This document shows positions 45,722 through 55,921 of a stretch of DNA of 64,000 bases, piece by piece. A program made the translations under genes and the position numbers. Position 1 is the first letter of the stretch. Each line of letters opens with the position of its first letter. The DNA is from Thermococcus paralvinellae (GTDB taxonomy: Archaea; Methanobacteriota_B; Thermococci; Thermococcales; Thermococcaceae), in NCBI RefSeq assembly GCF_000517445.1, contig NZ_CP006965.1:558001-622000 (forward strand), written 5' to 3'. Below the pieces are notes generated by a model. That model saw only the letters and a list, made by a program, of their open reading frames with translations, ran no database searches and was not told the DNA's origin.

Positions 45722-45859
45722 AGAGGCAACATAGAAGAACTTGATAAAGCTGGTGTAGTAAGGTCTCGTTTTATAAACAGCCTCTTAAGGTGGGCTCTTT
45801 TTGGAGAAGAGCCTTCTAGAATAGTGAAGTTGCTTGTAAAACAGCAGATAGAAGGTTTT
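45722..45859 (+). pseudogene. Relic int(N) of an older SSV-type integrase
   Basis: An open frame without a start codon reads straight into the tRNA-Glu-derived repeat, which is how int(N) pieces of SSV-type integrases sit. It encodes GNIEELDKAGVVRSRFINSL then LRWALFGEEPSRIVKLLVKQ. The first part has a ribbon-helix-helix look (helix, turn, R-S-x-F helix), like the N-terminus of the element's own int(N) at 55561. The sequence is unrelated in detail and enters the repeat in another frame. A stop codon (45719-45721) cuts it upstream. Confidence 0.5.
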
Positions 45860-45903
45860 TGGTGCCCCGGCCGGGATTTGAACCCGGGGCGCGGGCTCGA
45901 AAG
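45860..45903. repeat. Left attachment repeat (tRNA-Glu 3' fragment)
   Basis: Forty-four bases identical to 55757-55800. It contains the T-arm, acceptor 3' strand and CCA of tRNA-Glu but no 5' half, so it is not a working tRNA. The base after the repeat differs on the two sides (C here, G at the right). Confidence 0.95.
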
Positions 45904-46797
45904 CGGTTTTTGGAGAATTTAGAGAGTTTGTCATCGGCTATTGAGCTAATAGACCCAGCAGAAGGCTTGTTCCCCTCTACAAACCCTCTATCATCTCAGG
46001 GATGGGTGAGAAACTCAAAGAAATTCCAGCGATACTTGAGGTCGAAAGTCACTGAAGAGACAGTGCAGCAATATATGAGTGGGCTCACAAGATTTTTTGC
46101 CAAATACAAAAAGATTGAAGGATCTCTTGATCTAAAAGAGAAAATTAGCGATGCTACAAAACCAACCCAATTAGCAATGCGTAACTACATTCACTTTTTG
46201 TATTATGACAAACAGATAACAAGACTAGAGAGAGATGAACTACTTGAAGTCATTAAAATTAAAAAGACAGGAATTAGGACAATATTCATTTCAGATGATG
46301 ACATTATCGAAGCATTTAAAGTTATTACAACTCGTCGGGCAGAGAAATACAGACCAATATTTTTGCTAACACTATATAGTGGTGCTAGACTACGTACGAT
46401 CATTAGGGCAGTAAACAATTTTGACGTCACAAAAATAGTGAAAATAGACAATGAACTGGGGAGATACGAAATAAATAACATTAACTCTAACAAAAAAGAA
46501 TTCTACATTTATGCACCAATTGAATTGTTTTTAGAAGCATCAAAATATCAATATGATTACAAACTCGCAAGAAAGAGGATAACGTATGGAAATGTTTCCG
46601 CAAATACCTTGAGAAAATACTTCTATACAAAAGCAACAGAGTTAGGGATTCCTGAGGGAGTAATAGACTTCATACAATCACGATCCACAAAATCAGTAGG
46701 GGTACTGCATTATCTCGACAAAGTAAAACTCGCGGACAAATATTACCCAAAAATTTTTAATGCAATCAGAGAAGTGCTTCGCGAAGCAAAAAAGTAG
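45904..46797 (+). CDS. Int(C), catalytic part of split SSV-type tyrosine integrase
   Basis: The coding frame continues from the repeat (VPRPGFEPG...) with 297 residues. An alpha-helical core-binding region (EETVQQYMSGLTRFFAKY) is followed by the catalytic domain: the first Arg is in LYSGARLRTI, a Lys-rich beta segment follows, then VSANTLRKYFYTK, FIQSRSTKSVGVLHYLD, and the nucleophile is most likely in DKYYPKI near the C-terminus. The fragment has no start of its own apart from a fortuitous TTG at the repeat. The complete enzyme exists only in the excised circle. Confidence 0.88.
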   Translation, partial: RFLENLESLSSAIELIDPAEGLFPSTNPLSSQGWVRNSKKFQRYLRSKVTEETVQQYMSGLTRFFAKYKKIEGSLDLKEKISDATKPTQLAMRNYIHFLYYDKQITRLERDELLEVIKIKKTGIRTIFISDDDIIEAFKVITTRRAEKYRPIFLLTLYSGARLRTIIRAVNNFDVTKIVKIDNELGRYEINNINSNKKEFYIYAPIELFLEASKYQYDYKLARKRITYGNVSANTLRKYFYTKATELGIPEGVIDFIQSRSTKSVGVLHYLDKVKLADKYYPKIFNAIREVLREAKK

Positions 46798-46813
46798 CAA
46801 TACCTCTTTCCAG

Positions 46814-47746
46814 TTATTTTTCACTAATTTTCGATCCAATTGCATTAATCTGCTTGGACAGTTTTTCCAAAAACTTTTTGAAATCTTCGGCATTAAACGG
46901 AATATTTAGCAAAAATAGCTCTTCTCCTGTTGCAGTAGCTTCAAGGAATGAAATTGACTGTATAATCTTTTGAAAGTTAATAGAGTACCTTTCAAATTTT
47001 AGTGCAAATCGAAGCTTTTGAGTTATCTCCCCAATATAATCTTCGATGCTCAGACCTGCTTCTTTTTCGAGATAGTACAAATCGTAAATGTCTCTAAATT
47101 TCACCTTCTTTCGAGTTAAAAGTGCTCTAACTTTTTCTGTTAGAATCTCCCGCAGATCATATGCAGAAACAGGGACATCAGAGTAATCCTCAAGGAATTC
47201 TGAGAAATATGCCTTCTCCTCCTCACTCACTTGAACATCTGAAAGCAGGGATTTAGCACTAACATTTTTGGGCCCAAAAAGGAGCGTTTCTACGAAGTTA
47301 ACTTGAATCTTTATCATCTCACGCATGAGTCCTTCAGGATAATACAGCTTGAAAGTAATCATTCTAGATCCTCCGCCAAATTCTACATAATTCCTATCCC
47401 CCAAATCTGCTTTAAATTCTAGATCCCTTTTACTGGCAATGCTCTCAATTAGCTCTGCAAGTTTTATAGCTTCAGCTTTGAGTTCCCTTTCTCGGCTTCG
47501 TCTTGAAAGCTCTATCCATGTTTGAGGATTTCTACTTGTAAAGTCCAAATCAACACTGAAGCGATAGTAACCGAGATAACATTTAATCAAGCATGTCCCT
47601 CCTTTGAAGAGATAGTTGGTAGAAAAGTACTCATTTGAGTATAATTCTCTCAAAATGGAATGCAGAATGATGTCTTTTCGTATGAGATTTCCCTTTTTAA
47701 TTCCTGTTTTTTGGATTATAAACTCAACAAATTCCCTCTCGTTCAT
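46814..47746 (-). CDS. AbiEii-family nucleotidyltransferase toxin
   Basis: A 310-residue protein with the DNA polymerase beta-like motif LFKGGTCLIK followed by RFSVDLDF near residue 69. That is the GG-S/T...D-x-D active site of type IV toxin AbiEii. The C-terminal half is helical with LTEKVRALLTRKKVKFRDIYDL, a family landmark. AbiEii toxins are reported to act as (GTP-preferring) nucleotidyltransferases on tRNA or related targets. Its start overlaps the antitoxin gene by 23 bp and has GGGAGGTTTTAAAGC upstream. Confidence 0.85.
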   Translation of the reverse strand: MNEREFVEFIIQKTGIKKGNLIRKDIILHSILRELYSNEYFSTNYLFKGGTCLIKCYLGYYRFSVDLDFTSRNPQTWIELSRRSRERELKAEAIKLAELIESIASKRDLEFKADLGDRNYVEFGGGSRMITFKLYYPEGLMREMIKIQVNFVETLLFGPKNVSAKSLLSDVQVSEEEKAYFSEFLEDYSDVPVSAYDLREILTEKVRALLTRKKVKFRDIYDLYYLEKEAGLSIEDYIGEITQKLRFALKFERYSINFQKIIQSISFLEATATGEELFLLNIPFNAEDFKKFLEKLSKQINAIGSKISEK

Positions 47747-48365
47747 GCTTTAAAACCTCCCTCTGTACACTTTTTGGGTATTTCTCTATGTAGCTACATA
47801 AAATAGCCCAGTTAATCTTGTCTCCGTATTCTACTAAAATCTCCTCTGCATGTGGTTTGAGCCGTTTGTTGTACCTTGAGAGGTATATGAAGTCTAGGAT
47901 TGTTTTTTCAGGATCTGAAAACTTTATTTCGTCACTTTTGATTATTCCAAAAGTGGCTAAAGCTGGTTTTATTTTTACAAATTTGACATTCTCTCCAAGA
48001 ATTTTAACTGTTTTTGATCGGATTACTTTGTCATTGAGGATGAATATCATGTTGAAATATTCGTGAGTCATGCCATTGAGCCTCAAGGCTGTAAATAGCC
48101 CATAGTACCATATCAAATTGAGCTTGTTGAGCCCTTTTGCAATTACTCTAAATACATCAGGAGCCCGTTTTAATCCAATTTCTTCAATCGTTTTAACGTA
48201 ATATACCCCTCTGAGAACTCTAATTATATAGCCTCGGGATAGCAGGTAATTGACAAAATAATTAATGTCAATATTAAACCTCTCACTAACCTCTTTCAGC
48301 TCATCTTTTGTAACGGCACTACCTCCAAATCTTGAGATTATGTACCTAATTGCGAGTCGTCTCAT
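47724..48365 (-). CDS. AbiEi-family antitoxin / transcriptional regulator
   Basis: A 213-residue protein. An N-terminal winged helix (AIRYIISRFGGSAVTKDELKE, then YLLSRGYIIRVLRGVYYV) is followed by the AbiEi C-terminal domain (NLIWYYGLFTALRLNG; FSDPEKTILDFIYL). AbiEi antitoxins both neutralise the toxin and repress their own promoter. The start has no ribosome site, and the TATA is about 25 bp upstream, so the message is leaderless. A pair of inverted repeats flanks that TATA. Confidence 0.82.
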   Translation of the reverse strand: MRRLAIRYIISRFGGSAVTKDELKEVSERFNIDINYFVNYLLSRGYIIRVLRGVYYVKTIEEIGLKRAPDVFRVIAKGLNKLNLIWYYGLFTALRLNGMTHEYFNMIFILNDKVIRSKTVKILGENVKFVKIKPALATFGIIKSDEIKFSDPEKTILDFIYLSRYNKRLKPHAEEILVEYGDKINWAILCSYIEKYPKSVQREVLKHEREGIC

Positions 48366-48373
48366 GTTTCAAG

Positions 48374-48414
48374 TTGTTGAACAATCATATAAAAAATTAT
48401 TGGTTGTTCAACAA
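48374..48414. promoter_or_regulatory. Twin-repeat operator around the abiE promoter
   Basis: TTGTTGAACAA (48374-48384) and its exact reverse complement TTGTTCAACAA (48404-48414) are separated by 19 bp that contain the minus-strand TATA (TTTTATATG, about 48388-48396). Each arm is itself nearly palindromic. This matches the known use of inverted repeats by AbiEi repressors. Confidence 0.8.
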
Positions 48415-48843
48415 AACATGGATTGATTACTATATAAAGTTTAAACAATGGGAATAATATCTAAAAACAACAACCTCAAACTCTAAACTGCGAGAAGTGA
48501 AGTACAGCCTCTGTGTCCTGTTTGTTGTGTCTTTTTAATAAAAACATAAAACATATAGTTTTAAAACCTTGAATTATCGAATCATATAATAAACAAGAAC
48601 CGTAAAAAATAAATATTTCTACACATATCATAGCATATCGATAGAAATTTTATGATGCTTGAGGTGTATCCCTATGACAAAAGACTCAATAATTCAAGAA
48701 CAAGAATATAGGAAAGTTTGGAGCTCCCATTGGAGGCGGGAAGATGACTAATCTGACATTGTTCTATAATGCTGATGTGCTAGGGGATAGAACTCCAAGA
48801 GCTTTGTCATTATCTAATAGTATTGAAGACAAAGGGAGGGAGT
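48415..48843. other. AT-rich gene-poor spacer
   Basis: About 430 bp with low coding content. It has plus-strand TATA-like boxes (CTATATAAAG, about 48429-48438). A small ORF with a good ribosome site (48674-48751) lies near its right end. A second one (48744-48878, GGAGGCGGG upstream) runs into the DUF835 gene in another frame and is less convincing. No repeats or RNA genes were recognised. Confidence 0.5.
48674..48751 (+). CDS. Possible 25-residue peptide ORF
   Basis: MTKDSIIQEQEYRKVW followed by SSHWRREDD; GAGGTG is seven bases before the ATG. Too short to classify; could be a leader peptide for the downstream DUF835 gene or chance. Confidence 0.3.
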   Translation: MTKDSIIQEQEYRKVWSSHWRREDD

Positions 48844-49644
48844 ATGCAGGGAGTTGTTCAAATTCTTGGAGTTATTGAGCATTTCTTGTTAACAATTGCT
48901 CTTTTTGCTACTCTGTACATTTTCTATATTTCCATGAAAAATGAGCGGACTAGGGAATTTTACTTGATTCTAGTGGCAATATTGTCAATTTTTACAAGTA
49001 TTGTCAGTGAAGTTTTATTGACTCTTTTCAATTCAATATCTTCAGCTATGAGAATCATCGTGGAAGGAAATGCTATTCTGGCATCACTTTTGTTATTAAT
49101 TAGTCTTCTAAAAATAAAACAAAAATGCACCATAATTAAATTTGAATTTCCAGCTATAACTCTTGGGGGGAAAGAGATCAATATTACTCCGGGTTTGTTG
49201 TTGTTAGAGGCGAATGAGAATAATGCAGTGCTTGTTTGTAAATTGTCCAAAGACAGGAAAAGTTTGATTATTAGTAGGAGGAGAGAAGGTTATTGGAAGT
49301 CTCTAGGGTGTAATGCCCTAGTGATTTGGCTGAGCAAAATTGAGAATGTTAGAAATGTCGTCAATCCTAGAAATCTAGAGTATTTGAACCATCTCATTGT
49401 TCAGTTCATGAAAGAAGAGGGAGAGAAGTTCGTCTTTTTGGATGGGCTTGAGTACTTGATTCTTGAAAATGGTTTTGAAAGAGTTTTCAAATTTTTGACA
49501 ACACTAAAAGACTATTCGCTCCTCAACAACACCATGATTGTAATAGAGGTTAGTTCAGATACTCTAGATAAAAAAGAAGTAGCATTATTAACTAGAGAGT
49601 TTCATAGACTTCATGAAAATATACAGCAAAAAAGAGGAGCATAA
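48844..49644 (+). CDS. Membrane-anchored DUF835 protein
   Basis: A 266-residue protein with three hydrophobic helices at residues 8-30, 36-60 and 66-87, then a cytosolic domain of about 165 residues. The domain shows ITPGLLLLEANENNAV and FVFLDGLEYLILENGFERVF, the marks of DUF835. This Thermococcales family resembles a KaiC/RecA-like core without a working P-loop. It may be a membrane sensor or scaffold. GGGAGGGAGT precedes the ATG at 48844; the upstream TTG reading is weaker. Confidence 0.72.
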   Translation: MQGVVQILGVIEHFLLTIALFATLYIFYISMKNERTREFYLILVAILSIFTSIVSEVLLTLFNSISSAMRIIVEGNAILASLLLLISLLKIKQKCTIIKFEFPAITLGGKEINITPGLLLLEANENNAVLVCKLSKDRKSLIISRRREGYWKSLGCNALVIWLSKIENVRNVVNPRNLEYLNHLIVQFMKEEGEKFVFLDGLEYLILENGFERVFKFLTTLKDYSLLNNTMIVIEVSSDTLDKKEVALLTREFHRLHENIQQKRGA

Positions 49645-49678
49645 AAACACAATACTAAAAAGCTATTTACGATGAGTA

Positions 49679-50365
49679 TCATCTTGCCAAGTATTCTTGA
49701 AGTTCTTGGGCTTTAACTTTAATTTCCCGTCCATACTCACTAAAGTCTACAGATTTGGTGATTCTGAGTGTTATCTCTCCTTCTTTGAGTTCAACGTCAA
49801 AAACTCTACTTGCAATTTCTGTCCATTCTAAAACTGTTTTTTTGTCCAATAGGGAAGTATTCAAGAATATGACCCCAGTCGTATTTTTATCGCCTAAAAA
49901 CGGGCGAACTACCATTCCAAAAAAGTTCCCAGTTTCAAGAGGGTTCCTCTCATACAGCTTTAGCAATTTTTCAGTACCTATGACTATTCTCATAACATAA
50001 CCTTTCTCTTCTTGGATTTTTCTGAAGGTTTCAATGTAATGTTGCCTCCAAATTGGAAGGTCTTCTTCTAGATCAACTCTCCTGATAATATTCCCTGTAT
50101 GTAGAACACCGCCAAGTTTTATTACTTGAGCCTCATCAATAATACTTGTGTCTATCCCCACAAGTTCCAGATGAGCTTTAAAGACATGAAGCTGGTCTAC
50201 TGCATCAATTATTACGAATGGAATGTTGCTTTGTTTTAGATATTTCAGGAAAATGTAGAAAATTAGATGTATTGGCTCATTTGAAGTATATTCAACAAGG
50301 AGTATCTCTCCTCTCTGGATGGTTTTTGCATAGTCAAATATTGAAGACTCAAATCTCTCACTCAT
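49679..50365 (-). CDS. DUF257-family protein
   Basis: A 228-residue soluble protein matching the Pyrococcus/Thermococcus family DUF257. GEILLVEYTSNEPIHLIF stands where a RecA-like P-loop would be but lacks GKT; then FVIIDAVDQLHVF and TTGVIFLNTSLLD follow. It is likely a degenerate RecA-like fold with an unknown role. It converges on the DUF835 gene, another P-loop-lacking family, 34 bp away. GGTGGTGACTCT precedes the ATG. Confidence 0.75.
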   Translation of the reverse strand: MSERFESSIFDYAKTIQRGEILLVEYTSNEPIHLIFYIFLKYLKQSNIPFVIIDAVDQLHVFKAHLELVGIDTSIIDEAQVIKLGGVLHTGNIIRRVDLEEDLPIWRQHYIETFRKIQEEKGYVMRIVIGTEKLLKLYERNPLETGNFFGMVVRPFLGDKNTTGVIFLNTSLLDKKTVLEWTEIASRVFDVELKEGEITLRITKSVDFSEYGREIKVKAQELQEYLAR

Positions 50366-50462
50366 AGAGTCACCACCTCTCGCTGGGGTTTAGCCTTTTG
50401 AAAAAATTAGTTGCTTGATGTTAAAAAAAGTTTTTAGAAAAGTTTTTCAGGATTCTGAAATT

Positions 50463-50646
50463 TGTGCAATTTTTAAAAGATATATCAGTTTTCTTGATAT
50501 AATCATTTGGTTTTAATTTTGGGATAATGTTATTCCTGTGCAATTTTGCTTGCACAGCACACACATGCAATATATCAAAAAATTTGATATTTAGGAGACA
50601 CATTCGCAAACCACAACTCAAACCCCATATCAAAAAATTTATAAAC
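50463..50646. repeat. Cluster of inverted and direct repeats, possible origin or operator
   Basis: Within 185 bp of non-coding AT-rich DNA: TATATCA/TGATATA (50481-50487 and 50495-50501), CTGTGCAA/TTGCACAG (50536-50543 and 50550-50557), ATATCAAA-AAA-TTTGATAT (50572-50590), and a further copy ATATCAAAAAATTT (50627-50640). TGTGCAATTTT occurs twice (50463-50473 and 50537-50547). The next gene's TATA (AATTTATAAAC) abuts the last copy. This could be the element's replication origin or a multi-site operator. Confidence 0.6.
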
Positions 50647-50718
50647 AGTTTTGACATTATTAATATTGCGTGAGGCGCACTCAATAAAGTACTTCTCAAA
50701 ACACCCGAAGGTGGGTGT

Positions 50719-51288
50719 ATGCTCGGAACAAAAATGAAAAATTCTAAATCTAAAAAGAAAATATGGAAGCCCCGCGCAGCTATATATTTTGATAGAAACT
50801 ACACCCCAAACACTTTCGAAGATATTTTAGAACAAATCTTTCCAAACCACAAAAGAAGACAAGCTATAGCATTGTTCCTAATAAACAAACTCAAAAAAAC
50901 TCCAATTCCAGCAGAAGAATGGATTTTAACAGAATGTGAGTATCTAATTTGGGAAGCAGATAATATACCATACAGCACAATAAACAAAGAGAAAGCAGAA
51001 GAACTCTTTGAGTATGCCCAAGATGTTTATAACGACCTTGAAATCAGCAACACCAAAAGAAATAAACTCATCATGGCGAAAGCAGAAGAGCTGGATTTAA
51101 ACCTCTCTGGAATAAACACACAATTTTGGATAGTCAAGAGAGTTCTAAATGATTTGAGAATAATTTACAAGAAAGATAGAGTGTACTATTTGAGTAAAAA
51201 GGGTTTTTCCAAACTCCTCAAAAGAATAGCCGACATTACAGAGGATTATTTGCTCGACATTGAGGAGGAGTACGAGGAGGAGTTTTGA
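50719..51288 (+). CDS. Unknown helical protein, possible DNA-binding (element operon gene 1)
   Basis: A 189-residue protein, basic at the N-terminus (KMKNSKSKKKIWKPR) and acidic at the end. The C-terminal third (FWIVKRVLNDLRIIYKK, then RVYYLSKKGFSKLL) reads like a winged helix with its wing. It follows the repeat cluster and leads the operon, so a replication or repressor role is likely but not shown. GAAGGTGGGTGT precedes the ATG. Its stop overlaps the PrsW gene start (TGATG). Confidence 0.6.
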   Translation: MLGTKMKNSKSKKKIWKPRAAIYFDRNYTPNTFEDILEQIFPNHKRRQAIALFLINKLKKTPIPAEEWILTECEYLIWEADNIPYSTINKEKAEELFEYAQDVYNDLEISNTKRNKLIMAKAEELDLNLSGINTQFWIVKRVLNDLRIIYKKDRVYYLSKKGFSKLLKRIADITEDYLLDIEEEYEEEF

Positions 51289-51773
51289 TGAGTACTGCTA
51301 TAGTGCTCGAATCTAAAAATCGAAACAATTTTGATTTTGTCATGCTATTCCACATGCTAATAATATTTGGAGTATTTATTGACCCAAAGATCGCTGCAGC
51401 TATAAACACGAGAGTACTAATGCATTTTGGCGAACTAGTGGTCGGAATTACTGCAGGATTCGTCGAGGAGTTTTTAAAAATTTTTAGTGCTTTATTGCTC
51501 TATTACATGTTCAAAAACTCGATAAACGCCCCAGCAGTGCTTTATGGTATTGCAATTGCTTCACTATTCGCTATGTATGAAGGCCTAATGGTATACTATA
51601 ATACGTTTGACACACTCACTTTGAGAATAATAACGCACACTCTCTATACGGGTGTCTATTTTGAAATCGTACACTCAAGAAATAAACACCCTCTCATGGG
51701 GTATCTAGCAAGCGCATTGCTGCATGCCCTCTACAACACGAGAGCCTATCTAATAACAGTGGGGGGAACTTGA
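51288..51773 (+). CDS. PrsW-family intramembrane protease
   Basis: A 161-residue protein with about five membrane helices. Four PrsW motifs occur in order: GFVEEFLK (Glu60, Glu61, Lys64), LYGIAIASLFAMYEG (Glu98), RIITHTLY (His117) and ASALLHALYN (His146, Asn150). In Bacillus the matching protein cuts the anti-sigma factor RsiW in the membrane. All predicted active-site residues are here, so activity is likely. GGAGGAGTTTTG precedes the ATG. It directly precedes a degenerate relative in the same operon. Confidence 0.82.
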   Translation: MSTAIVLESKNRNNFDFVMLFHMLIIFGVFIDPKIAAAINTRVLMHFGELVVGITAGFVEEFLKIFSALLLYYMFKNSINAPAVLYGIAIASLFAMYEGLMVYYNTFDTLTLRIITHTLYTGVYFEIVHSRNKHPLMGYLASALLHALYNTRAYLITVGGT

Positions 51774-52244
51774 ATGTTCTTGGGTATTCCCCACTCTTCT
51801 CTAAAAATACGGCTTCCGACATCCCTGATCGTATTATTTGCCTCTTTAGTTTTAATATTTGTAGGATTCGGTGTTGATACTGTCCTAATACATTTTTTGA
51901 GTGACAGTGGCAAACCAACACTCTTGCTATTGCTTTTAGTGGGTCCATACATGGAAAACCTAGAGCTCTTCGAAATCCTCGGTAAAATCTTCATGAAGAA
52001 TAACTTCAGCAAACAAAAGGCAAGCATCATCTTGCTGAGTGTTACGACAGTTGAAAGTCTTGTCATAGCAAAATATTTTTCAGTCACTCCCCTGTATAGT
52101 TTATTGAACATTTTGGCTACGTGGTATTTTATAGAATACCTCTATACTTTCAGAGATACTAGGATTATCGATGCAGCAGCAAATGCAATACACTTTCGCT
52201 GTATTGTTCAATTCCCACTGGTATTATATTTAACATATGGGTGA
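51774..52244 (+). CDS. Membrane protein, degenerate PrsW-like partner
   Basis: A 156-residue membrane protein. Helix order and spacing follow the preceding PrsW protein: VGPYMENLELFEILGK stands for the EExxK segment, SVTTVESLVI keeps a Glu (94) at the motif 2 place, ILATWYFIEYLY replaces motif 3 without the His, and ANAIHFRCIV keeps a His (140). It probably lost catalytic activity and serves as a partner or regulator. The ATG directly follows the PrsW stop. GGGGGAACTTGA is upstream. Confidence 0.55.
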   Translation: MFLGIPHSSLKIRLPTSLIVLFASLVLIFVGFGVDTVLIHFLSDSGKPTLLLLLLVGPYMENLELFEILGKIFMKNNFSKQKASIILLSVTTVESLVIAKYFSVTPLYSLLNILATWYFIEYLYTFRDTRIIDAAANAIHFRCIVQFPLVLYLTYG

Positions 52245-52249
52245 GCAGA

Positions 52250-52573
52250 ATGATTAGAGGCGAGTTGTACGTGAAATACTCAAAGGAGAAAATATTAGGG
52301 GGTTATTTCAGAAACAAAAAACATCTACTCGAGCATTTTGTTAAAGTCCTCTCTGCAATTACTCCACAGGTAGTCACAAAAGGGGAAATCATTTCCTTTG
52401 AGGTTTCTAAACAAGACAAATATTTCATGAGAGACATTCTGAAAGAGCGTTTTAAAAGCAATGAGTTCAAGGACAAGATCGAGAAAGCAGACGACTTCGT
52501 ACTGTTTTATGACAACAAAAACCATAACGTCTTTGCAGTAGTCCTAATTTTTCAAGATAAAGTCAATAGGTAG
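52250..52573 (+). CDS. Small protein of unknown function (element operon gene 4)
   Basis: A 107-residue soluble, charged alpha/beta protein (MIRGELYVKYSKEKILGG, FEVSKQDKYFMRDILKE, VLFYDNKNHNVFAVVLIF). No family is recognised. Start at ATG 52250 with GGGTGAGCAGA; the upstream GTG (52241) overlaps the previous stop. It completes the four-gene operon with the PrsW pair and ends by overlapping the convergent gene by 11 bp. Confidence 0.55.
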   Translation: MIRGELYVKYSKEKILGGYFRNKKHLLEHFVKVLSAITPQVVTKGEIISFEVSKQDKYFMRDILKERFKSNEFKDKIEKADDFVLFYDNKNHNVFAVVLIFQDKVNR

Positions 52574-53030
52574 AAGAGTAGCGTGAAGAGCTTGTATAAA
52601 GTGATAACAGCACATCAAGTGCTTTATCCTTTAATTCTTCATCTTTAATATAATTTTTTATGAGATTGTATACCCCCTCATAGTCATAATACCACGCACG
52701 TATATACCTGACGTTTTCTCCAACCCAATCTTTGGAAGTTAGTGTTGGCTTTTTTCTCAGCTCTTCATCCTTCAAAATCTTCACAGAGCGTGAATATAGA
52801 GCAACTCCTGCATTCTGTAATAGGGCGTTAAATTTGTGATATTCTTTTTTTGTGTTAAATCTCTTGTAAATCAGCCTTGATGGGACAACTAAACACTTTT
52901 TCTTTTTCCATTTTAGCATGAAAATTGTGTTCTCTGTCCTCGTCCTTGGCTCAAAGCTTTTTGCTTCTTCAATTAGGATTAAAGCAAGAATGGTTGCAGC
53001 CTTCTCAAGGTTCCTCTCGAGCGCCTCCAT
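52563..53030 (-). CDS. Unknown protein, 155 residues
   Basis: A basic, mostly helical protein. Segments such as MLKWKKKKCLVVPSRLIYKR and YYDYEGVYNLIKNYI are visible but no motif is. It may bind nucleic acids judging by charge. It is the only minus-strand gene in this part of the element and converges with the PrsW operon. Its start is the only ATG with the full domain; no strong ribosome site is seen. Confidence 0.5.
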   Translation of the reverse strand: MEALERNLEKAATILALILIEEAKSFEPRTRTENTIFMLKWKKKKCLVVPSRLIYKRFNTKKEYHKFNALLQNAGVALYSRSVKILKDEELRKKPTLTSKDWVGENVRYIRAWYYDYEGVYNLIKNYIKDEELKDKALDVLLSLYTSSSRYSSTY

Positions 53031-53119
53031 TCTATGGCACCTTGTTACTTTTTGTCGTGTAGATAGTTAAACTTTATTGAAAAAACATTATTAATGTTCT
53101 GCGCGCTTTCTATATTGCT

Positions 53120-53476
53120 ATGATTGTTAATGATGCCATAAATTCTAAAAAGTTCATACTTTATGCCTTGCCGGATACGGATAATAATGAAATAGTGGCA
53201 AAGAAAGTTTTTGAGATCAAGACGGGCGACATCATAAAAACAGCACGCGATGCAAGAAATGTTCTTCAGGTGTTCTATAACACTGACTACAGTATTTGTG
53301 TGCATTTTTGTTCAAAGGAAGACCCAACGTTTCAAAAACTCAAATCCACCCTCTTTAGAATTTCTAAAGTTAGAGAGGTGCTGAAGGGAGATATGATAAT
53401 ACTGTATTGTATAAAATATTGGGTGGTTGGATTTGGCATTGTTGTTGGGGAACAGAAATTCATTTCTAATATGTGA
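53120..53476 (+). CDS. Unknown protein, 118 residues
   Basis: An alpha/beta protein with KKFILYALPDTDNNEIVAKK at the start and a beta-rich second half (GDMIILYCIKYWVVGFGIVVG). No family is recognised. No ribosome site precedes the ATG, so it would be leaderless. Base use matches its neighbours in the element. Confidence 0.45.
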   Translation: MIVNDAINSKKFILYALPDTDNNEIVAKKVFEIKTGDIIKTARDARNVLQVFYNTDYSICVHFCSKEDPTFQKLKSTLFRISKVREVLKGDMIILYCIKYWVVGFGIVVGEQKFISNM

Positions 53477-53529
53477 CAATTCTCGTAACTTTTAATTTTT
53501 AACAGTGTCATCAATGGTATAGTGCTTCT

Positions 53530-53757
53530 GTGATTGTTGTGGGGCTACTTTATGCCTTTAGTTCTAAACAACTTGGATATGTGGAGAAGATGTCCAAGAC
53601 GAAGAATAAGAATATCAAAAAGATAAAATTGTCAGATATTATGAGAGATTTTGAGGCTTTTGAGCAGTATAAAGATGAAATCTGGGATTTAATCAAAAAA
53701 GGAGAAATAGAAGTAGACGAGCCACTTCTGTTGTTAGTGTTGAAAGCATATTTGTAG
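53530..53757 (+). CDS. Small unknown protein, start uncertain
   Basis: Up to 75 residues. The C-terminal half reads DIMRDFEAFEQYKDEIWDLI then KKGEIEVDEPLLLLVLKAYL, a plausible folded helix pair. The start may be GTG 53530 or an internal ATG after a basic stretch. No motif. Confidence 0.4.
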   Translation: MIVVGLLYAFSSKQLGYVEKMSKTKNKNIKKIKLSDIMRDFEAFEQYKDEIWDLIKKGEIEVDEPLLLLVLKAYL

Positions 53758-53791
53758 TGTTCCTGTTTTAATTTTTACAAAGCTTTTCAAG

Positions 53792-54064
53792 ATGTCTTGG
53801 AGTTATACAGTGATTATTTGCAAAGAAAAAACAATAGAAGGTAAAGAACTTGAGGAATATCAAAAATGGATTGAAATAGACTGTACCATTATTATAGCAT
53901 ACAAGATGCGTGGATATTTGTTTTGGCATCCTCACTTTAGAAGATGGTACCAATGGTGTGAAGCAATGCGAGCCCATGCAAGACAATACTTTGACTTTAC
54001 ACCTATTTCAAGACAGTTTAGGGGGTCATTAAAAGATACTAATGAATTACATAATGTCGATTGA
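53792..54064 (+). CDS. Small Trp/His-rich unknown protein
   Basis: A 90-residue protein with an unusual aromatic and histidine-rich centre (LFWHPHFRRWYQWCEAMRAH). The first half is a beta-helix pattern (SYTVIICKEKTIEGKELEEY). No family is known to me. No good ribosome site; the start ATG at 53792 is tentative. The 3' end overlaps a tiny ORF. Confidence 0.4.
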   Translation: MSWSYTVIICKEKTIEGKELEEYQKWIEIDCTIIIAYKMRGYLFWHPHFRRWYQWCEAMRAHARQYFDFTPISRQFRGSLKDTNELHNVD

Positions 54065-54170
54065 CTCTTTGAACAAGCTTGATAATGCTATTATTTTAAA
54101 GCGCTTGAGTGAGAATGAAAAATCATGTCCTCACATGGACAGTAAACGTTATCTTTTGAAAACTATTTAG
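54054..54170 (+). pseudogene. Short open frame, probable gene remnant
   Basis: Thirty-eight codons ending at TAG 54168-54170. The sequence includes NEKSCPHMDSKRYLLKTI. After the stop another frame reads VVNGEKYCLVHSHTTF, which could be its continuation after a frameshift. Together the Cys/His residues hint at a small zinc-binding protein that has decayed. Confidence 0.3.
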
Positions 54171-54216
54171 TTGTGAATGGTGAGAAGTACTGCTTGGTGC
54201 ATTCTCATACAACTTT

Positions 54217-54678
54217 TTGCACAATATACTATCGGATAATCTTGCAAAAATAAATTTTAGAAATAATGAGATTATTATCAAGAAAGAAGACTTTGAGAAA
54301 GTTGTAAAACGTTATTTTGAGGATGTTGAGCCCTTTGAAGAAGAGTTTATAGAGGACATTAAAAGGGAAGGTTTGTTAAAGGAGTATCGTGAGAATGAGT
54401 ATGTACTCTTTGCCGATCGAGTGTTTAAAACTCTGGTTCCAGATTTGGAAAACATACTTCTTTTTCTCAAGAATGCTCTTTCAGGTACAAGTGGAAGTGT
54501 TGTCATAGAGAGTGATGAGGAGAGCATGGTGGGTTTTATGTACTATATCAATGCGGTTAAAGAAGTAGCATTTAAAAAAAGAGAGGGAATGCCTGTGAGT
54601 TATGAGATAACTATTGATGTTAATGAGGTCAAAAAAGCAATAAATGAGCTTTATCCATTTTTAAAACATAGGAACTAA
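54217..54678 (+). CDS. Unknown acidic protein, 153 residues
   Basis: The protein opens with NLAKINFRNNEIIIKKEDF and continues with an acidic helical part (FEDVEPFEEEFIEDIKREG), then a second alpha/beta half (SGSVVIESDEESMVGFMYYI). No family is recognised. The first codon in frame is TTG at 54217; no better start is present, so the 5' end may be truncated by the remnant upstream. Confidence 0.5.
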   Translation: MHNILSDNLAKINFRNNEIIIKKEDFEKVVKRYFEDVEPFEEEFIEDIKREGLLKEYRENEYVLFADRVFKTLVPDLENILLFLKNALSGTSGSVVIESDEESMVGFMYYINAVKEVAFKKREGMPVSYEITIDVNEVKKAINELYPFLKHRN

Positions 54679-54742
54679 TTCTCAAAATCTCAAAGATACT
54701 GTAGAAAATGTGTTATTAACGGAATATCTTGTCTTTGTTGAA

Positions 54743-54770
54743 TTAATATTGTTGTGTGGGTGAATATTAA
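54743..54770. promoter_or_regulatory. Inverted repeat upstream of the 145-residue gene
   Basis: TTAATATT (54743-54750) and AATATTAA (54763-54770) with a 12-bp spacer, about 40-70 bp before the ATG at 54812. Could be an operator; an AT-rich TATA-like stretch overlaps the right arm. Confidence 0.4.
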
Positions 54771-54811
54771 TAAACAATAAACACTAAAATTCCTAGACAA
54801 GGTGGTGAATC

Positions 54812-55249
54812 ATGAGCAAACGCTCTGTTCTCCCTAAAATGGAATCTGAAATGTGGAGACCTTTAGCATACATCTATAGAGAAAATAAAGCAATGGTGGA
54901 GTATATAATAATTGGGAATACTAGGCCAAAATTAGAAGAAGTTGTGCATTTGGGGATGAAGTTTGCAAGGAAGATACTAGAACTCGAAGATCTCGAAGGA
55001 ATGCCAATTCATGTTGGCAAATATTTATATTTAATTCCCGAAAGCGACCAAAAAAGAGATGGAGATCATAAATATATTCTCTATACCCATGTGATTCTTC
55101 TAAACGATGATGAGCTCCTTCTTGAAGATGTTTATGCTACACTGGACATAATCCCTGTCGAGAGTGGAAAAAGAATACGTTTGATTTTCACGACTCCCGT
55201 AGGGTTAATATTTGACTTGCATATTATAAAAGAGAAGGATTCATGGTAG
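54812..55249 (+). CDS. Unknown protein, 145 residues
   Basis: Soluble alpha/beta protein: MSKRSVLPKMESEMWRPL at the start, a helix KLEEVVHLGMKFARKILE in the centre, and beta strands to the end (IRLIFTTPVGLIFDLHIIK). No motif or family is recognised. AAGGTGGTGAATC precedes the ATG, the best ribosome site in this part of the element, so the gene is real. Confidence 0.55.
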   Translation: MSKRSVLPKMESEMWRPLAYIYRENKAMVEYIIIGNTRPKLEEVVHLGMKFARKILELEDLEGMPIHVGKYLYLIPESDQKRDGDHKYILYTHVILLNDDELLLEDVYATLDIIPVESGKRIRLIFTTPVGLIFDLHIIKEKDSW

Positions 55250-55560
55250 TGTGTTTGAAGTAGGGTACTCGAATAGAGTTGTGAAATCTTTGGAAAGTGA
55301 TGTTGTTAATTTGTTCTCTAAAGATATTCGCTTTAATTAAATAATTACGTAATTACATAATTAAATAGTTTTTGATTATAAATTTTGATTTTCTCAAGTT
55401 CATCGCAAAATCTCGTTAATTTCATTGTGGAGGAGTGGTTGATTTTGGTTAACTCTTTATTGGCTTGTAATTTACTTGGCATCTGTTTTTGTAGATTACT
55501 AAAGTTTTAAATAATTTAATGTTCAATTTTTGTTCAAGAATTGTACAAAAGGTGTTCAAA
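55250..55560. other. AT-rich spacer with palindromes before int(N)
   Basis: Three AT-rich palindromes lie side by side: TTTAATTAAA (55332-55341), TAATTACGTAATTA (55342-55355) and a partial copy of the first (ATAATTAAAT, 55357-55366). They lie about 200 bp upstream of the integrase. The rest shows no gene. They could be an integrase operator or part of an origin. Confidence 0.5.
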
Positions 55561-55800
55561 ATGCGGCGAAGAAAATGGGGTGGAGAGTTTGTCGATGTCC
55601 ATGTGCAGCTCCCGAAGTGGCTTGTTCGCAAAATAAAGGACAGTGGGTTTTATTTGGGTGAGTTTCTAGAAAATGCGGCTATTTTATTGCTTGAAAGTCT
55701 TTATAATGGGGCAGTTTCCAGAAATGGAGGCTCAGAATTCTCTATTAACGAAATTATGGTGCCCCGGCCGGGATTTGAACCCGGGGCGCGGGCTCGAAAG
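55561..55800 (+). CDS. Int(N), N-terminal part of split SSV-type integrase
   Basis: Eighty codons ending inside the right repeat. RKWGGEFVDVHVQLPKWLVR, then KIKDSGFYLGEFLENAAILL, looks like a ribbon-helix-helix DNA-binding unit, followed by a linker and the repeat-encoded VPRPGFEPGARARK. The frame joins int(C) exactly. AGGTGTTCAAA precedes the ATG. On the chromosome it runs on antisense through the tRNA to a stop near 55848, a meaningless tail. Confidence 0.85.
55757..55800. repeat. Right attachment repeat
   Basis: The 44-bp copy that is part of the intact tRNA-Glu gene. The recombination point lies somewhere inside these identical bases, most likely in the anticodon-stem part, as in other SSV-type elements. 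Confidence 0.95.
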
Positions 55801-55834
55801 GCCCGCATGTTTGACCGGGCTACACCACCGGGGC
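55757..55834 (-). tRNA. tRNA-Glu (anticodon TTC)
   Basis: The acceptor GCCCCGG pairs with CCGGGGC, followed by the discriminator A and an encoded CCA. The anticodon stem CGGGC/GCCCG holds the loop CTTTCGA with anticodon TTC. The T arm has GGGTTCAAATCCC. A TATA (TTTTTAAATG, minus strand) lies about 30 bp upstream. The gene is regenerated by the integrated element and no intron is seen. Confidence 0.96.
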
Positions 55835-55921
55835 GTCCAATATCTTAAGCCTTAAGTCCATTTAAAAAGTTTTCGTTCACAATTCTTTTAAATTCACATT
55901 TCCCTCTGGATTTGATGGAAA

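Follow-up and report, generated by a model that had tools for sequence, protein, structure and literature searches.

An integrated mobile element in the genome of Thermococcus paralvinellae carries a gene whose 161-residue product belongs, on profile and motif evidence, to the PrsW family of intramembrane proteases. The gene is the second of four tightly coupled genes (50719-52573), and it stands out by its small size, its location on an element and the orphan membrane protein encoded beside it. The four genes are read here, at a probability of about 45%, as a coupled accessory operon that would serve the element with a regulator, a probably active PrsW protease, a membrane partner and a soluble protein. 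The window analysed, the whole stretch of 64,000 nucleotides, is part of a 1.96-Mb single-contig Thermococcales genome.

The integrated element and its probable four-gene operon

The element, its integrase and the four genes have the following layout.

45857-55800, no strand assigned: integrated element of about 9.9 kb, between two 47-nt att repeats
45857-45903 and 55754-55800: the two att repeat copies, a direct repeat with 46 of 47 positions identical (repeat search)
45859-46797, plus strand: int(C), the catalytic portion of a self-splitting ('suicidal') tyrosine integrase (Pfam PF16795)
50638-50645, plus strand: putative TATA-box-like site TTTATAAA, about 80 nt upstream of the operon, read directly from the sequence
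50719-51288, plus strand: gene 1, 189-aa winged-helix-like protein with homologues on Thermococcales plasmids and at chromosomal loci (alignment)
51288-51773, plus strand: gene 2, predicted 161-aa compact PrsW-family intramembrane protease (E60 E61 K64 / E98 / H117 / H146 N150)
51774-52244, plus strand: gene 3, orphan membrane protein of 156 aa, about five helices predicted
52250-52573, plus strand: gene 4, soluble orphan protein of 107 aa (110 aa if translation begins at a GTG at 52241)
55519-55848, plus strand: int(N), the integrase's N-terminal part, whose frame extends across the att site in the tRNA-Glu gene

The att repeat is the 3′ part of tRNA-Glu(TTC) (tRNA search, Rfam tRNA), and its right copy lies within an intact tRNA-Glu(TTC) gene (tRNA search). 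Rejoined across the repeat, int(C) and int(N) form a single in-frame ORF of 391 aa. The element is a suicidal integrase element of the SSV/pT26-2 type, its integrase gene split by the att site in a tRNA gene, an arrangement known for SSV, pTN3 and pT26-2 elements (PMC8371274). A sequence-only reading of this DNA had placed the genes on a mobile element, and the att repeat, the tRNA-Glu gene and the split integrase bear it out.

As in the pT26-2-type elements of Thermococcales (PMC8371274), the PF16795 integrase is split at an att site inside a tRNA gene. In contrast to those elements, this element of about 9.9 kb carries mostly orphan genes, and the part matched here to pT26-2 is the integrase, where int(C) is 32% identical to t26-1p. 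Its other genes include AbiEii and AbiEi, a toxin-antitoxin/abortive-infection pair at 46814-48365 on the minus strand (PADLOC, 4.7e-133 and 7e-91), a DUF835 gene at 48823 and a DUF257 gene at 49679. Genes without family matches lie between 52563 and 55249, for example those encoding 155 aa at 52563 (minus strand), 153 aa at 54217 and 145 aa at 54812. For the last of these proteins, 60 other Thermococcales genomes yielded no relative.

The four plus-strand genes are closely coupled. The ATG of gene 2 overlaps the TGA of gene 1, and the ATG of gene 3 (51774) abuts the TGA of gene 2 (51771-51773) in the same frame, so that the next ORF does begin right at the stop codon of the 161-residue protein, as had been noted. 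The start of gene 4 follows within 6 nt of the end of gene 3, and a G/purine-rich, ribosome-binding-like stretch precedes each start. The genes would constitute a single accessory operon, translationally coupled and probably cotranscribed, of this integrated Thermococcales element. No orthologue of gene 2, 3 or 4 turned up in 94 Thermococcales genomes, which leaves no other genome in which their linkage could be compared. Searches of plasmids and viral contigs found no orthologues of genes 2 and 3.

Gene 2 as a compact PrsW protein

Gene 2 scores 37 bits against Pfam PF13367 (curated cut-off 23.5; E = 3.4e-9), its sole Pfam match, and has no match in NCBIfam. A leave-one-out profile, built from 71 Thermococcales PrsW proteins with gene 2 left out, gives it 37.8 bits, while the best of 200 shuffles reaches 6.6. 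An hhalign comparison with the PrsW alignment A1 is circular, gene 2 being part of A1, and its result is not used. The closest relative, a Thermococcales PrsW protein, is 30% identical over 115 aa (9e-8), and two weak matches that were inspected, L004 and L005, proved to be PrsW genes on chromosomes. No gene 2 orthologue was found in phage records, in a wider phylum sample or in a pattern scan of genome contigs.

Motif conservation was counted in an alignment with 41 Thermococcales PrsW relatives. E60, E61 and K64 (EExxK), E98, H117 and G138 are invariant (41 of 41), and H146 is kept in 40, with one gap (L067). Two positions depart from the family: position 150 is Asp in 40 of the 41 relatives and Asn in gene 2, which thus ends in HxxxN rather than HxxxD, and Asn also replaces the Glu that 39 of the 41 relatives have at position 40. 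The sequence-only reading had listed E60/E61/K64, E98, H117, H146 and N150 in the order of the PrsW motifs, with which the ORF, the PF13367 match and the conservation agree. A published model groups the PrsW EExxK and HxxxD residues and an extra His in the active site (PMC4602095). Judged by its residues, the active site of gene 2 is apparently complete, and the protein a shortened but apparently intact protease.

Most PrsW representatives have eight transmembrane helices (PMC3482391). About five are predicted for gene 2 (2-47, 49-74, 81-102, 107-132 and 135-157), in an AlphaFold2 model that treats the products of both genes, 2 and 3, as a continuous chain across the TGA, a modelling device that implies no readthrough. 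Mean pLDDT is about 70 for the gene 2 half, too weak for fold searches, and searches with the model gave no hit, PDB or viral, at E <= 0.001. Gene 2 is filed as a shortened PrsW because the core from EExxK to HxxxN is present and the curated Pfam cut-off is passed. It may be among the smaller full-motif PrsW proteins and help to define how small the core of such proteases can be.

PrsW is encoded in 93 of the 94 Thermococcales genomes, many of which have a second, divergent copy. The idea that a PrsW protein in an archaeon is itself a surprise was therefore dropped, and the earlier contrast with an archaeal lack of the PrsW-dependent sigma pathway carries no weight for the same reason. To our knowledge, the anti-sigma substrate is absent in archaea. 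Chromosomal divergent PrsW proteins of Thermococcales (for example L069 in G047) have the same EExxK, E, H and HxxxD/N set as gene 2, which differs from them in its length of 161 aa and about five helices (most others have 230-310 aa), in having Asn for Asp and in being carried by a mobile element. Bacillus subtilis PrsW, the site-1 protease for RsiW, has the Pfam family and the motif order in common with gene 2, but the gene 2 operon encodes no membrane-tethered regulator.

A plasmid search with chromosomal PrsW as the query found plasmid-borne PrsW in Staphylococcus, Priestia and Haladaptatus. There, as here, PrsW sits on a mobile element, although the host elements are unrelated and were reached from the chromosomal query, not from gene 2. 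PrsW is ordinary in archaea, and bacterial and haloarchaeal plasmids have it too. The PrsW alignments have no match in viral contigs.

Tandem PrsW genes occur at two chromosomal loci (L082, 1702-3188; L110, 2791-4274), with the motifs complete in both copies. At a third locus (L106, 1745-2496, in G028), a divergent PrsW gene is apparently split into two overlapping frames.

The possible membrane partner and the proposed role of the operon

In the operon reading, gene 2 would be a compact PrsW intramembrane protease, probably active. Gene 3 would be a small, fast-evolving membrane protein, most likely acting at gene 2 as a substrate, a substrate-presenting subunit or a regulator, and gene 4 a small soluble protein. 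The operon would most likely serve to cleave a membrane-embedded protein or peptide to the benefit of the element; a changed host envelope, exclusion of related elements or the release of a signal are examples of possible outcomes. Membrane proteolysis would thereby be added to the tools of Thermococcales mobile elements. Counted against the proposal are N150 and N40, the shortness of gene 2 and its missing NCBIfam match, the orphan status of genes 2-4 and the occurrence of gene 1 homologues without PrsW.

Gene 3 is a genuine gene product with no family match in Pfam, NCBIfam, PHROGs or PADLOC. Its strongest weak match (L009) was rejected, as the match contains a stop and overlaps ribosomal-protein genes.

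One specific form of the partnership would make gene 3 the substrate of gene 2, an element membrane protein, perhaps toxic or signalling, that is destroyed or activated by cleavage. The immediate coupling of the two genes speaks for this, as does the fact that gene 3 is orphan and fast-evolving, like gene 2. RsiW, the known PrsW substrate, is a single-pass protein, whereas gene 3 with its five or so helices would be an unusual target. The substrate reading is somewhat unlikely.

An unlikely alternative to it is that gene 3 arose as a tandem duplicate of gene 2, lost its catalytic residues and now regulates the active copy or presents substrate to it. The tandem order, the in-frame adjacency and the similar lengths favour common origin. 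So does helix spacing: the predicted helices of gene 3 (16-44, 48-75, 80-101, 106-126 and 129-155) nearly match those of gene 2 in position. The sequence-only reading had noted this spacing; the near match stands, but any five-helix protein of about 158 aa would look much alike. Residues E61, E94 and H140 of gene 3 lie near PrsW positions, at a PrsW-like spacing that has P = 0.03-0.2 against shuffles at the tolerance needed. Global alignment of genes 2 and 3 gives P = 0.04-0.22 depending on the matrix, the lowest value with PAM250, and BLASTP gives E = 4.9.

Profile comparisons point the other way. Gene 3 scores 0.6 bits against the PrsW profile, equalled or exceeded by 302 of the 1975 reported shuffles, and -1.1 bits against the leave-one-out profile, inside the shuffle range; hhalign against PrsW returns a probability of 0.1%. 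Gene 2 given the gene 3 residues at four motif positions still scores 17 bits. Stripped of all motif residues, gene 2 falls to -2.3 bits, and a motif-less PrsW as divergent as gene 2 would therefore be indistinguishable from noise. The real tandem at L082 is a further contrast: that pair is 29% identical (1e-10), with both copies motif-complete, although it and L110 do establish that tandem PrsW genes exist on Thermococcus chromosomes. A single-sequence AlphaFold2 model of gene 3 (pLDDT 51.5, pTM 0.31) is too weak for a fold search and gave no fold match.

The earlier description of gene 3 as a degenerate PrsW thus finds no sound support in profile scores near 0 bits, like those of shuffles, in alignments near chance or in the hhalign result, and a PrsW-derived pseudoprotease is unsupported by sequence. 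An 'active/inactive protease pair' is a guess, because the sequence tests are at or near chance and both structure predictions are too poor. APH-1, a member of the PrsW/CPBP superfamily that sits in gamma-secretase, offers a parallel for such a pair. By that analogy, a two-subunit protease would combine a minimal, active PrsW with a catalytically dead partner derived from PrsW, under a regulator encoded by the element, a prokaryotic counterpart that is decidedly unlikely. If genes 2 and 3 were such a pair, they would provide a simple model of pseudoenzyme control over intramembrane proteases.

Equally improbable is that the genes are decaying passengers of an element trapped by its split integrase, with genes 2-4 no longer functional. 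The split integrase, the orphan state of genes 2-4 and the shortened PrsW would fit decay, but no frame of the four is interrupted, all are coupled and have ribosome-binding-like sites, and gene 2 retains its motifs. Very unlikely, finally, is a function of gene 2 in the manner of type II CAAX (CPBP/Abi) proteases, for example immunity against a membrane-active peptide, in place of PrsW-type regulatory proteolysis. Its HxxxN ending is the form found in type II CAAX proteases, PrsW having HxxxD (PMC4602095). Against this, it has EExxK and not EExxxR, its His one helix ahead of the final motif is a PrsW feature, and PF13367 is its only Pfam match.

The winged-helix gene and related chromosomal clusters

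Gene 1 belongs, by alignment, to a winged-helix family represented on the Pyrococcus plasmids pP12-1 (36%, 1e-9) and pRT1 (26%, 6e-4), whose proteins align over 81% of its length. Homologues occur in seven Thermococcales genomes at E <= 6e-6, its own included. The plasmid-family homologues and the alignment thus agree with the earlier description of the first gene as winged-helix-like. On pP12-1, 'gene 7' encodes a winged-helix regulator like PAV1 ORF180a (PMC3543421), and the pP12-1 homologue of gene 1 is probably this protein, judging from the accession order; PAV1 itself was not matched by gene 1 in the phage collection. In the operon reading, gene 1 would be a plasmid-type winged-helix DNA-binding protein that probably controls its own promoter.

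At the loci whose neighbourhood was read, a PrsW gene never follows a gene 1 homologue. The gene 2 operon differs in this from the winged-helix loci of pP12-1 and pRT1, where no PrsW is annotated beside the homologue. Regulated proteolysis of a membrane-tethered regulator was also considered for gene 1 but set aside, since no transmembrane helix is predicted in its product.

Elsewhere in the same genome, at about 1917386-1920754 (L057, 7386-10754), a chromosomal cluster combines a DUF257-like gene with winged-helix genes related to gene 1, close to tRNA-Glu(CTC). Similar clusters are present at L059 and L062. L057 and L059 each have two gene 1-related proteins and a DUF835-like membrane protein, L062 has one gene 1-related protein, and the DUF labels at all three loci are given by resemblance and not by profile search. 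The L057-type cluster may be the relic of a related element, since the element carries the same kinds of genes (DUF835 and DUF257).
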